Part shown: positions 30,948-35,266 of the stretch, one piece after another
Numbering within the stretch: position 1 is the stretch's first letter
How the letters are laid out: each line of letters begins with the position of its first letter
NCBI GenBank assembly: GCA_947591605.1
Contig: CANQDF010000010.1
Span: 1 to 64,000, forward strand
Length of the DNA stretch: 64,000 bases
Direction: 5' to 3'
Source of the DNA: an uncultured Clostridia bacterium
GTDB lineage: Bacteria > Bacillota > Clostridia > Lachnospirales > CAG-274
Made by a program: the position numbers and the translations under genes
Notes under the pieces: model-generated
What the model was told of the DNA's origin: nothing
Databases searched by the model: none
Seen by the model: the letters and a program-made list of their open reading frames with translations, nothing else

Positions 30948-30981
30948 AAACTGAATGAAATGCCGACCGGCATTTCATTCA
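30943..30981 (-). terminator. Terminator overlapping the 3' end of the SLH gene
   Basis: Minus strand: a 14-bp stem TGAATGAAATGCCG/CGGCATTTCATTCA with G and T7 after it. The stop codon of the gene lies in the first arm. Confidence 0.88.
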
Positions 30982-32822
30982 ATAATGTAAATAAGTTCAT
31001 TTCCGCTGCCGTCAATGCCTATCCTGTATATTGCTCCTCCCTCGTTTCGGCTCCTGTAATATATCGTGCCGTTCTCTGCCTTTAAGATCTCTGCAGCGTC
31101 GTTATCCGCACCGTTTGTTATGCTTATATGATCTCCGTTTTTATCAAACTTAAGTATAGCCTTGCTGCCGTCATCCGAACAAGCTATGATGAAAATATTG
31201 CCGCCGTACAAAACAGGCTCTCCAAACGCATATCCGTCATACAGCCTTACCTCGTTATTTCCGCTGAGGTCGCTTCTTGTAAGGCAGTAATCGGGGCTCC
31301 TCATGCCGCTCGGATATGCCTTGACAAAGTATTTATACTTCTCGTCATATGTTTCTCTGGCGATATGGCTTTCCGCATAATTCATCTCGTTTGAGCTTAT
31401 CTCTGTCTTTTCCGAGCCGTCAAGCTTCATTTTATAAGATCTGCCGTCTATACCGTAATAGATAAGACCGTCCTCGGTAAAACGGAGCTCTGCACTTTCT
31501 GCACAATTGGCTTCAAGCAGCACCTGCATATCGCTTCCGTCCTTTTTTACCCTGAATATCCTATAAGCGATATTGCCGATGGATCTGTATTCGGAATCCT
31601 CACAATAAAGCCATTCTCCGTCTGCGGGCTGCTTATACTGACCGTCGCTTTCGGTCGGCGCCTGCTTGCAGGAGTAAAGCCTCAGCATTGTGGCTATTGC
31701 CTGTTCCCTTGTATAGTTCATCCAGGGCGAAAACTTATTTGGCTCCGTACCCGTCATAATACAGGTATCTCCGCTTTTTACCGAGGTTATGTTGTATATG
31801 GCTTCCCTTGCCCACTGTGCAAAGTATCCCTCGTCGATAAATTCCGCCTTATTCTCACTGCCCTTAAGCCCCAAAAGCCCGGCAATGTTGTTGAGCATTA
31901 CCGCCGCCTCCTGGCGTGTAATATTATTTTGCGGTGAAAATTTGTTTGCGCCCGTGCCCGAAACTATGCCCAGATCATAGGCGGCTGTCACATATGCGTC
32001 CGAAACATCGTCAAACGGGCTTTCGGTGCTGTCGTCAAGCCTGTAGCCTGTCCTTTTGACATAGGTCTGCACCGCAAGGCGGCAAAACTCCCGTCTGTTT
32101 ATTTTATCCGTATAATTGCCCTGCAGCTCATCGGGCACAATGCCTGCCGCAACCGCAGCATTTATGCTGTCCCTTGCCCATGCAGAGGCACTGCTGCGGT
32201 TTACAAGCTGTGCTGCATCGGCATATGTGTTTACAACGCCGTTTGTATCGGTCACCTCGATACTGCCGGATACCGCCTTTATGCTGCGGTACTGTATATC
32301 CGAGAGCCTGCCTCCGTCCGCATCACAGATATAATAGCTTATATAGCCGTCATTTATTTCCGCATCCTCGTCAATAACTCTTTCGTAATAAAAGTCCGTG
32401 CCGTCAAGGTGCCTTATGTCCTTTGGCTGAGGCACGGGATCCATATCCGTATCAAAAAATTCTATTTTGTCCGGGCCCTCTCCCCACGTAAGGCACTCAA
32501 ACGTCTTTGTGTTTTCATTATAATTTATCTGACTGAATCTCGGCTCAAGTATTATATTGAAGTCGGTATCCAGTATGCCGTAGCGCTGACCGTACGAAAG
32601 CATCCTCGCTATTATCCTTCCGCCGCCGGGCTTTATCACATCGTAGTCGCTGTCCGAGATTATATTTCCGTCCTTGTCGTAAACGGTATAGGCAACATCC
32701 ATATCCTTTTTCTCATAAAAATATGGTGTGCCGTCAAGCGGTGCTTTTCCGCTGCCCGATACCGATACCGCACATACCGCAGCCATAACCGCCGTCATCA
32801 GCGCAGCCGCTGTTTTCTTCAT
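30975..32822 (-). CDS. SLH-anchored surface protein with WG-like and DUF5050-like domains
   Basis: 615 aa from the ATG at 32822 (AAGGGGG upstream). A signal peptide (MKKTAAALMTAVMAAVCAVSVSG) precedes a WG/KWG-like region (YGILDTDFNIILEPRFSQIN). Three SLH repeats follow: 'SASAWARDSINAAVAAGIVP...INRREFCRLAV' (about 205-255), 'FDDVSDAYVTAAYDLGIVSGTGANKFSPQNNITRQEAAVML' (about 265-310) and 'FAQWAREAIYNITSV...FSPWMNYTREQAIATML' (about 325-380). SLH repeats bind secondary wall polymers. The C-terminal part (about 400-615) is a propeller-like DUF5050 repeat region. Probably a wall-bound surface protein; ligand unknown. Confidence 0.88.
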   Translation of the reverse strand: MKKTAAALMTAVMAAVCAVSVSGSGKAPLDGTPYFYEKKDMDVAYTVYDKDGNIISDSDYDVIKPGGGRIIARMLSYGQRYGILDTDFNIILEPRFSQINYNENTKTFECLTWGEGPDKIEFFDTDMDPVPQPKDIRHLDGTDFYYERVIDEDAEINDGYISYYICDADGGRLSDIQYRSIKAVSGSIEVTDTNGVVNTYADAAQLVNRSSASAWARDSINAAVAAGIVPDELQGNYTDKINRREFCRLAVQTYVKRTGYRLDDSTESPFDDVSDAYVTAAYDLGIVSGTGANKFSPQNNITRQEAAVMLNNIAGLLGLKGSENKAEFIDEGYFAQWAREAIYNITSVKSGDTCIMTGTEPNKFSPWMNYTREQAIATMLRLYSCKQAPTESDGQYKQPADGEWLYCEDSEYRSIGNIAYRIFRVKKDGSDMQVLLEANCAESAELRFTEDGLIYYGIDGRSYKMKLDGSEKTEISSNEMNYAESHIARETYDEKYKYFVKAYPSGMRSPDYCLTRSDLSGNNEVRLYDGYAFGEPVLYGGNIFIIACSDDGSKAILKFDKNGDHISITNGADNDAAEILKAENGTIYYRSRNEGGAIYRIGIDGSGNELIYIIE

Positions 32823-32910
32823 AACATATCCCCCTTATGCAAGCTTATACTATATGCAATTATATATAACATAACACAAAAAATCAAGCATACACGGTTT
32901 ATCTCCGTTT

Positions 32911-33028
32911 TTTGTAAATTGCAATATAAAATGTCACCAAAGTGAAGACTGTAAATTTGGAGAAAATGCCGCTTAATAAGAAGAAAGCCGGTTAAGTTTC
33001 TTCCTTGGATATTTATTTATCCAATTCT
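32911..33028. repeat. 118-bp direct repeat, left copy
   Basis: Starts TTTGTAAATTGCAATATAAA and ends ATTTATTTATCCAATTCT. It is colinear without indels with 35121-35238 and differs at roughly ten positions. Confidence 0.9.
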
Positions 33029-33170
33029 GAATGAATCTGATAAATTTTTTCGATTTTCTGATCATAGTTCGTCATCAGAAAGTCCGAATACGGTTCAGCG
33101 AAAATTTCAGGCTCATGATCGTATGACATCATTTCTGTCGGTTCGTGCACATCAAAACCATTAACCCGGG
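33013..33170 (-). pseudogene. C-terminal fragment of an unknown protein
   Basis: A minus-strand frame (EPTEMMSYDHEPEIFAEPYS, then DQKIEKIYQIHSELDK and TAA at 33013-33015) is strongly protein-like but has no start; its upstream end overlaps the 3' end of blaR1. The stop lies in the left direct repeat. The parent family is not recognised. It was probably captured with the cassette. Confidence 0.45.
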
Positions 33171-34642
33171 TAAACGCTATCAGGATAAATCAAATCCCCA
33201 TTTTTGTCATAAACCCTGCATATCATATGATGTCGTTTTGAATATGTACCTCCGCCCAACATATAATCCATATAATCATATGTAATATATGTCTTACCAT
33301 TTCGCAAAACAGGAACATTTCTAGTATTTGCCGCATAACTCATATAACCGTTTTCGGAATCGGGATTTACAGCAATACTGTCACTGCCAATTTTTATTTC
33401 ATAAAGAAATTCTGCCTTTGATGTACCTATAATTTCATTGTTTTGATAAATGTCAGTAGGTAAGGAAAGAGTAATGTAAATTTTTTTGTTATCCCAACTG
33501 ATATTGCTATCTATATTTAGTTTTTCAAACATTTCTCTAAGTGGCAAGTACACCTCACCATTTTCCACAAACGGCTTATTTATCAGTTCAACTTTATCGC
33601 CGTTATTTGTTATTTCAACCGTATAATCGTCCGTTGTCATATCTGACAGCACACCGCTTGCAAATACTGTTGTACCAAGCATAAATACCGCCAATACCGC
33701 TGATAATACTGACATAAGCCTACTTTTATTTCTTCTGTTTTTCATCATTTCAAACCTCTTTTTCAGAATTTTTTTATTTCCGGCCATCCCCGTTGTCAGG
33801 TGAATAGCTTTTGTTTCGCTCACCGGGAGCATGGAAAGGATGGTTTCCATATAGCTTTGTTCCTCATCGCCGTTCATTTTCGCCGTTGCCGATAAATCGC
33901 AGGAAATTTCACATTCCGTATTGATTTGCCACACCACATAATAGATAACGGGGTTAAACCAATGCACGCATTTGACTATTACCGCAAACCATTTGTAGAG
34001 AATATCTCTGCGGTGAAAATGCGTCATTTCATGGCGGAGGATATTGTGAAGCTGTTCGGGCGTAAATGTTCTTTTGGGTAGTATCAGCATAGGACGGAAT
34101 ACTCCTGTCATAAACGGCATGGATATTGTGCCGCTCTCAAACACCCGTACATTTCTGCCTGTGTATTGACGAAGCTCCGGGCATGCCGTTTCTCGTGAGG
34201 TTTTGCGGATTTTTCTTAGCAGCAGAAAGTATCCCGTCAGATACGTCAACAGCAAGCCGACTGCTCCCGTCAGCCACAAAAGGACAAGATAGCGCTGTCC
34301 GTTGCCGCGCAGCGTTTGCCGGAGCCATGCGAGGCCATCCGACAGGGCGGGCGCTATAGCTGAGATTGCCGGTGTATCTGCCTTGTTTATCACCGCAGTT
34401 TCGCTTTGCGGTACATTCTGCATTTGCACTTCTTGCTCCAAGGCAACGGAAAAAGCCGTATTTTGCGGCAACGAAATCCGTACCGGCAGCAGGAAAACGA
34501 TAAGCACCGCAAGCCAAATGTAATAGTGCCACGCATAGCCGAAAATCTTTCGGGTCACCGGCTTTGCAATGGCAAGGATCCCTGTCAGAACCGAACCCGT
34601 CAAGGAGGTTATGAAAAGTGATTTTATAATTTCACCAAACAT
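33161..34642 (-). CDS. blaR1: BlaR1/MecR1-family M56 sensor protease with a stalk-type sensor domain
   Basis: 493 aa from the ATG at 34642, AGGAGG 9 nt upstream. The family senses a signal outside and cleaves the partner repressor inside. Four membrane helices are visible (about 5-25, 36-56, 117-145, 308-328). The M56 peptidase domain has HEMTH at 204-208 (zinc ligands and catalytic Glu) and 'NTECEISCD' near 241 as third-ligand region. Instead of the penicillin-binding sensor domain of true BlaR1, the C-terminal 150 residues carry a copper-amine-oxidase-like unit ('VELINKPFVENGEVYLPLREMFEKLNIDSNISWD'). The signal is therefore unlikely to be a beta-lactam. 3 bp from the blaI-like gene. Confidence 0.88.
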   Translation of the reverse strand: MFGEIIKSLFITSLTGSVLTGILAIAKPVTRKIFGYAWHYYIWLAVLIVFLLPVRISLPQNTAFSVALEQEVQMQNVPQSETAVINKADTPAISAIAPALSDGLAWLRQTLRGNGQRYLVLLWLTGAVGLLLTYLTGYFLLLRKIRKTSRETACPELRQYTGRNVRVFESGTISMPFMTGVFRPMLILPKRTFTPEQLHNILRHEMTHFHRRDILYKWFAVIVKCVHWFNPVIYYVVWQINTECEISCDLSATAKMNGDEEQSYMETILSMLPVSETKAIHLTTGMAGNKKILKKRFEMMKNRRNKSRLMSVLSAVLAVFMLGTTVFASGVLSDMTTDDYTVEITNNGDKVELINKPFVENGEVYLPLREMFEKLNIDSNISWDNKKIYITLSLPTDIYQNNEIIGTSKAEFLYEIKIGSDSIAVNPDSENGYMSYAANTRNVPVLRNGKTYITYDYMDYMLGGGTYSKRHHMICRVYDKNGDLIYPDSVYPG

Positions 34643-34645
34643 CTT

Positions 34646-35023
34646 CTACTTCCTCCTGTCGTTAAAGTAATCTCTCAACTCGGCAATTTCCTCTTCCGAA
34701 AACGTGTCCTCTTCCGCTAAAGAAACAATCAAATCCCGCGCGGAACCTCCGAAAACATTTTGGATAAGATTTAGCGCCTGTCCTTTTTTGTATTCCTTGA
34801 AGGAAACCTTTGCCGTATAATAAAGGCTCCTGCCGCGCCGTTCGGTATTGAGCATTCCTTTCTCCACAAGTCTTGCCAAAAATGTTGCAATTGTAGTACG
34901 CTTCCAACCCTTGTTCTCTACAATATTTCCTATTTCTGTTGATGTAATCGGCTCGCCTGCCTTCCATATCACGCGCATAATTTCAAGCTCCGCTTTTGCA
35001 ATACTGATATTTTCTGTCGACAT
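34646..35023 (-). CDS. blaI: BlaI/MecI/CopY-family transcriptional repressor
   Basis: 125 aa, the normal length, from the ATG at 35023 with AGGGGG upstream. A winged helix occupies residues 8-75 (AELEIMRVIWKAGEPITSTE, 'KGWKRTTIATFLARLVEKGMLNTERRGRSLYYTAKVS'), and the rest dimerises. The family's cleavage site for the M56 partner lies in the C-terminal half (N-F in BlaI; here 'NVFGGS' is a candidate, which is inference). It likely represses its own promoter through the dyads at 35046-35085. Confidence 0.92.
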   Translation of the reverse strand: MSTENISIAKAELEIMRVIWKAGEPITSTEIGNIVENKGWKRTTIATFLARLVEKGMLNTERRGRSLYYTAKVSFKEYKKGQALNLIQNVFGGSARDLIVSLAEEDTFSEEEIAELRDYFNDRRK

Positions 35024-35045
35024 AAAAATACCCCCTTTTTTATTA

Positions 35046-35096
35046 TCTACGCTGTGTAGACAATTACAGTCTACATCATATAGACGAATATGTCAA
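35046..35096 (-). promoter_or_regulatory. blaI-blaR1 promoter with two operator dyads
   Basis: TTGACA (35096-35091) and TAGACT (35073-35068), 17 bp apart on the minus strand. GTCTA-N7-TAGAC (35069-35085) lies between and over the -10. TCTAC-N5-GTAGA (35046-35060) lies downstream of it. Both are consistent with BlaI-type binding that blocks polymerase. Confidence 0.75.
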
Positions 35097-35120
35097 CCCT
35101 TTTTTTAATTTCTTAAAAAA

Positions 35121-35238
35121 TTTGTAAATTGCAATATAAAATGTCACCAAAGTAAAGGTGGTAAATTTAGAGAAAGTGCCGATTCATAAGAAGAAAGCCG
35201 GTTCAGTTTCTTCCTTGGATATTTATTTATCCAATTCT
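35121..35238. repeat. 118-bp direct repeat, right copy
   Basis: Direct-orientation copy of 32911-33028; its last base is the first base of the outer TTATCTCCG repeat. Confidence 0.9.
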
Positions 35239-35266
35239 TATCTCCGCTTTTTTATACACAGGGTAC

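Follow-up and report, generated by a model that had tools for sequence, protein, structure and literature searches.

Truncated ends of a promoter-associated IS30-family element on both sides of a blaI/blaR1-like operon in a Clostridia genome

The two direct repeats around a blaI/blaR1-like operon in the window (the whole 64-kb stretch of DNA analysed) are both B ends of a multicopy insertion sequence (IS) of the IS30 family with a 15-bp target duplication, and the transposase and A ends of both copies are missing. The locus is probably a fossil composite transposon of this element, IS-blaR1/blaI-IS, a reading that includes the movement of the unit and its later deletions. As transposon fossils go, the cassette is of an ordinary kind; the parent element, most of whose B ends lie at a nearly constant distance from promoters, matters more. 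The locus contains the following features, numbered from the first letter of the window.

32859–32887, minus strand: sigmaA-type promoter of the S-layer-homology/DUF5050 gene (30975–32822), -35 TTGATT at 32882–32887, 17-bp spacer, -10 TATAAT at 32859–32864
32899–32912, no strand: left copy of the target duplication, TTATCTCCG-TTTTT with one C lost, directly outside the B end
32913–33039, minus strand: IS1 remnant, ~127 bp from the B end (3' end) of the IS30-family element
33016–33186, minus strand: 57-codon orphan open reading frame (ORF), its 3' part running into the IS1 remnant
33161–34642, minus strand: BlaR1-like protein, 493 aa, M56 metallopeptidase (HEMTH) plus Cu_amine_oxidN1 domain
34646–35023, minus strand: BlaI/CopY-type repressor, 125 aa
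35039–35096, minus strand: blaI-blaR1 operon promoter/operator, -35 TTGACA at 35091–35096, 17-bp spacer, -10 TAGACT at 35068–35073
35108–35122, no strand: outer-edge 15 bp of IS2, ATTTCTTAAAAAATT, its expected own target duplication
35123–35238, minus strand: IS2 remnant, second B end, ~116 bp, truncated at CCAATTC(T), 26 bp upstream of the blaI -35 box
35238–35252, no strand: right copy of the target duplication, TTATCTCCGCTTTTT, adjoining the shortened IS2 remnant with no gap

An earlier note on this DNA had described 118-bp direct repeats and a 9-bp sequence at both outer edges of the cassette, and both are present. The repeats (32911–33028 and 35121–35238) are colinear, 92% identical and placed on both sides of the operon, and TTATCTCCG lies outside both of them, at 32899–32907 and 35238–35246. 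The first two T's of each repeat are a chance match, and the IS remnants proper start after them, at 32913 and at 35123. The duplication had to be extended from 9 bp to 15 bp with one base lost from the left copy, the length being fixed by three other sites in the genome with exact 15-bp duplications. By itself, TTATCTCCG is weak evidence, since it occurs five times on the plus strand and twice on the minus strand of the 64 kb, perhaps owing to the resemblance of CGGAGATAA to a ribosome-binding site. The aligned 15-bp pair at the repeat edges is strong evidence, because only four positions in the 64 kb, besides the left 15-mer itself, match it at 13/15 or better, and one of these is the right copy.

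The window repeats match each other at 107/117 positions and the copy on contig C30 at 109 and 107/117. Being no closer to each other than to C30, they are two separate IS copies, and private base changes along both set them apart from the collapsed copies of the genome. A local duplication of one repeat was rejected, as both copies are equally far from each other and from the other copies. On its minus strand the IS1 remnant encodes a C-terminal fragment of the transposase with its stop codon (RFIQNWINKYPRKKLNRLSSY, then stop).

The genes earlier identified as blaI and blaR1 do encode a repressor and an M56 protein, but the latter has no penicillin-binding sensor. The M56 domain of the BlaR1-like protein is clear (PF05569, E 9.5e-46) and its C-terminal part consists of a Cu_amine_oxidN1 (copper-amine-oxidase-N) domain only; no penicillin-binding sensor domain was found in it by Pfam or by NF000326 (119.5 bits versus an equivalog cut-off of 400). 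No beta-lactamase was present among the neighbouring genes tested by Pfam. Judged by its domains, the M56-Cu_amine_oxidN1 fusion might be a cell-surface sensor for something other than beta-lactams. The operon promoter is overlapped by TCTAC..GTAGA palindromes, a pattern that recurs upstream of two relatives (L021 and L022). The closest relatives of the operon, at 47–49% identity, come from three Clostridia metagenome-assembled genomes, whereas two same-genus genomes yield only ~27–30% matches to distant M56 proteins, so that the operon looks acquired. By alignment, the relatives L021–L023 have a like M56 plus Cu_amine_oxidN1 architecture. As for the 'foreign gene fragment' of the earlier note, an ORF of 57 codons does exist at 33016–33186, but it has no Pfam match and no relative in 48 genomes of the family.

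Searching the organism's own genome (2.37 Mb in 59 contigs) with the left repeat recovered 11 places. Most are at contig ends, and in every case the repeat is entered from one and the same side, the pattern that a multicopy IS would produce by interrupting a short-read assembly; at most of the other copies the assembly breaks ~75–80 bp into the IS. On contig C37 (L013) the decayed C-terminus of an IS30 transposase comes after the repeat, and contig C39 carries an intact N-terminal half of an IS30 transposase that starts at the opposite IS end, GGGAAGTTGTAAAATAAAATGACAC. We designate the GGGAAGTTGTAAAATAAAATGACAC side the A end; the window repeat, TGTAAATTGCAATATAAAATGTCAC, is called the B end and is located 3' of the transposase gene. 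A search for the repeat near transposases, as the earlier note had recommended, thus gave a match on C37, and full-length relatives exist. One of them, on contig C59 of genome G023, is complete at 1195 bp and has the exact 15-bp duplication ACATAAAAAAGCACC on both sides. The IS30 model NF033563 (cut-off 80 bits) scored 89 on the partial transposase of C39 and 228 on the full G023 protein. The terminal inverted repeats are imperfect, A and B ends agreeing at 18/24 positions in G023, and the own A and B ends align likewise.

Exact 15-bp duplications pair A and B contig ends of the own genome three times: GCTAATCAAGACATC (C7/C52), CAAATTTACATTCTC (C40/C55) and CAAAATTTTTAACGC (C45/C12). In genome G003 the flanks of C680 and C395 have ATTTTTTATTTTTTG in common. 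The 2-bp target duplication of IS30 itself was therefore not seen, the length being 15 bp in the three own pairs and in G023. Some IS30-family members, such as IS1630, make longer target duplications. Lone B-end stubs also occur elsewhere in the genome, including one of ~22 bp on C43, 26 bp from a perfect promoter. No match to the B end was found among viral contigs, nor one to the cassette among plasmids.

Some further copies deserve description. On C39 (L078) IS copies run off both contig ends with their A ends facing inward, and the left A-end flank agrees at 13/15 positions with the B-end flank on C30 (L012); the two may belong to one old insertion with a mutated duplication. That the 118-bp unit is a miniature element (MITE) was rejected for the own genome, because the C30 and C37 copies run on into transposase sequence. 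A mini-IS with B and A ends seems to be present only in G009, where contig C1 (L089, about 830–1100) has both ends with no transposase gene between them, a likely MITE near polysaccharide-type genes.

At the locus, two IS remnants surround passenger DNA and share one target duplication outside them. Functional outer ends and a transposase gene are absent: there is no A end, and only the C-terminal transposase fragment with its stop remains. IS2 was not simply inserted in place, since its own flanking 15 bp, ATTTCTTAAAAAATT, has no second copy within the window. The partner of the left stub's duplication directly follows the right stub, and a composite transposon IS1-operon-IS2 would come to look like this once the interior of IS1 and the outer portion of IS2 were gone. 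The earlier suggestion of a composite or recombination-driven insertion is supported as far as a composite-like insertion with a target duplication goes, but there is no support for the 118-bp repeats being themselves the functional ends.

We infer the movement of the unit as a composite transposon, and the order of its deletions, as follows. One IS copy would have inserted 26 bp upstream of the blaI promoter and a second, pointing the same way, past the 3' end of blaR1. With B of IS1 and A of IS2 as its outer ends, the whole unit would then have moved into this chromosome and duplicated 15 bp of target; its B end would once more have come to lie 26 bp upstream, this time of the promoter of the S-layer-domain gene. 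Deletions like those known from ISApl1/mcr-1 would later have removed most of IS1, all of it inward of the first ~127 bp, and most of IS2, the loss there running from CCAATTC through the A-end tip, with CT common to both joints. The outcome would be two direct B-end stubs with the duplication outside both, and the predicted empty site reads ...CACGGT-TTATCTCCGCTTTTT-TATACACAGG... The unit should no longer transpose, because both IS copies are without transposase and A end. RecA recombination between the repeats could still remove the operon, with one stub left behind; the 'precise' excision by unequal crossover envisaged earlier does not follow, as the product would be not the empty site but a single IS end flanked on each side by the duplication.

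Several observations count against the composite reading. Neither an intact composite copy nor an empty site was found; the two same-genus genomes have a different gene upstream of the PP-loop gene, and the flanking S-layer-domain gene was not found there as an orthologue. Two independent deletions would not be expected to end so close together in the IS, yet the stubs measure 116 and 127 bp. The duplication is imperfect on the left, and the 57-codon ORF between IS1 and blaR1 has no place in the explanation. The exact right border and the similar truncation of the stubs are together the weak point of this reading.

It is this border that the main rival addresses. In transposition, the partner of the true B end of IS1 could have been an end-like sequence, AAGAATTGGATAAATAAATATCCAA, at the inner edge of the IS2 stub, so that 32913–35237 was inserted as it stands and no deletion at the right border is needed. 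The duplication does abut the stub with no gap, and the border sequence matches the A end at 14/25 positions, tied third-best of about 4,475 positions. However, 14/25 is a modest match in A+T-rich sequence, an identical sequence in IS1 (33029) scores equally, and for similar ISApl1 structures the authors preferred deletion to cryptic-end transposition (PMC5821093); we regard such an event as unlikely. Homologous recombination offers another route, in which a single IS stood upstream of the S-layer gene promoter and DNA comprising the fragment, blaR1, blaI and an IS entered later by exchange within the IS, with an illegitimate joint at ~33040. Repeats of different ages permit such an exchange, and the joint at ~33040 is illegitimate under any model; but a further deletion ending exactly at the duplication would be required, and a mosaic repeat would be expected; we hold this course of events to be distinctly improbable. 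Finally, unrelated contigs might have been joined by the assembler at a multicopy repeat, as the assembly breaks within most other copies could suggest, but the private base changes across both window copies and the match of the duplication on both sides of the cassette leave this very little room. We retain the composite transposon as the best explanation of the locus.

The B ends are also distinguished by where they lie. When the flanks outside them are aligned, TGTCAA, the complement of a -35 box, ends 26 bp from the IS and the complement of a -10 box follows 17 bp further out. Sites were scored over the 12 bases of -35 and -10 at a 17-bp spacer, a score of at least 9 being taken as a fit. 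By this measure B ends lie 25–27 bp upstream of a sigmaA-type -35 box in 10/11 cases in the own genome, there at 25–26 bp, and in 7/13 cases in seven other genomes, 17/24 overall against a chance level of 0.4% of positions. The own fitting sites include L012, L014–L020 and the two of the window (32859–32887 and 35068–35096), and the one that does not fit is the decayed copy on C37. Over 14 sites, the own ones together with those of G003, G023 and G032, the mean score was 8.9 at the fixed offset versus at most 5.0 at any other common shift, and none of 20,000 random-shift permutations reached 8.9.

Elsewhere, the B-end sites of G003, G023 and G032 fit. Among copies found by their end pattern, those of G206, from another family of the order, fit in three of four cases (L221, L223 and L224 are multicopy-end loci in this genome) and those of G067 in one of three; remnants in G009 (two) and G001 (one) showed no promoter fit. 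It was on the own sites that the motif first came to light, and the pattern was already known when G032 and G206 were looked at. G003, G023 and G032 belong to the own family, the G206 copies being the nearest thing to an independent test. In the window, the S-layer-domain gene has its -35 box 25 bp from the left stub because of the C lost from the left duplication (26 bp with it restored), and blaI has its own 26 bp from the right stub. Both stubs are thus authentic insertion edges, each being at the element's standard promoter distance. An automatic end-finder gave no convincing duplication or promoter signal for more distant IS30 elements of the order, so that we confine the claim to this lineage and do not call the habit general for IS30.

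We put forward, with the balance of our judgement evenly poised, that an IS30-family lineage came, independently of Mutator-like elements, to prefer sites in one orientation and at a set distance, ~26 bp, on the upstream side of the -35 box. Such sites fall at about -47 to -61, the region of action of the RNA polymerase alpha-CTD and of UP elements, and the transposase may recognise promoters with polymerase bound to them. Composite forms would then deliver passenger operons beside promoters without disrupting them. If true, the choice of promoter-upstream sites by an IS30-type transposase would be a second way, unrelated to that of TnGBS and ISLre2, of solving the problem of harmless landing, and an element of about 1.2 kb would be a compact system for studying how a bacterial transposase reads a promoter, from DNA alone or via RNA polymerase.

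Compared with known systems, the passenger resembles BlaI–BlaR1 and MecI–MecR1 in that one operon encodes a BlaI-type repressor together with a membrane metallopeptidase of the BlaR1 type (M56) and has palindromic operators; it differs in having a Cu_amine_oxidN1 domain instead of the penicillin-binding sensor, and all its scores are below the NCBIfam cut-offs. The decay of the unit resembles that of ISApl1-mcr-1-ISApl1 (Tn6330) and its derivatives, in which IS30-family copies surround a passenger and one or both ISs have been deleted, with joints of 1–10 bp (PMC5821093). There too, partial IS ends are left and the passenger is immobilised. In contrast to the 2-bp duplication of ISApl1-mcr-1, that of our locus is 15 bp; here, moreover, both stubs keep the B end, the passenger is a regulator pair and the target is a promoter-upstream site. 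With IS30 of Escherichia coli the element has the transposase family and terminal inverted repeats in common, but the targets of IS30 are hot-spot sequences or its own inverted repeats, and its duplication is 2 bp long (PMC9333248).

The closest likeness in target choice is to TnGBS, ISLre2 and some ISKra4-group elements, whose Mutator-like transposases direct oriented insertion upstream of sigmaA promoters, 15–17 bp from the -35 box (PMC3942029). Like them, the element inserts at a fixed distance and in one orientation, and the end nearer the promoter is located 3' of the transposase gene (IRr in those elements, B in this one). Unlike TnGBS and ISLre2, which have a p-MULT (Mutator-like DDE) transposase, it belongs to the IS30 family, and its distance to the -35 box is 26 bp versus 15–17 bp for TnGBS. 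In the open-access literature searched, we found no report of promoter targeting by IS30-family elements. Promoter-upstream insertion is known from TnGBS, ISLre2 and ISKra4; such targeting in an IS30-family lineage would be new.
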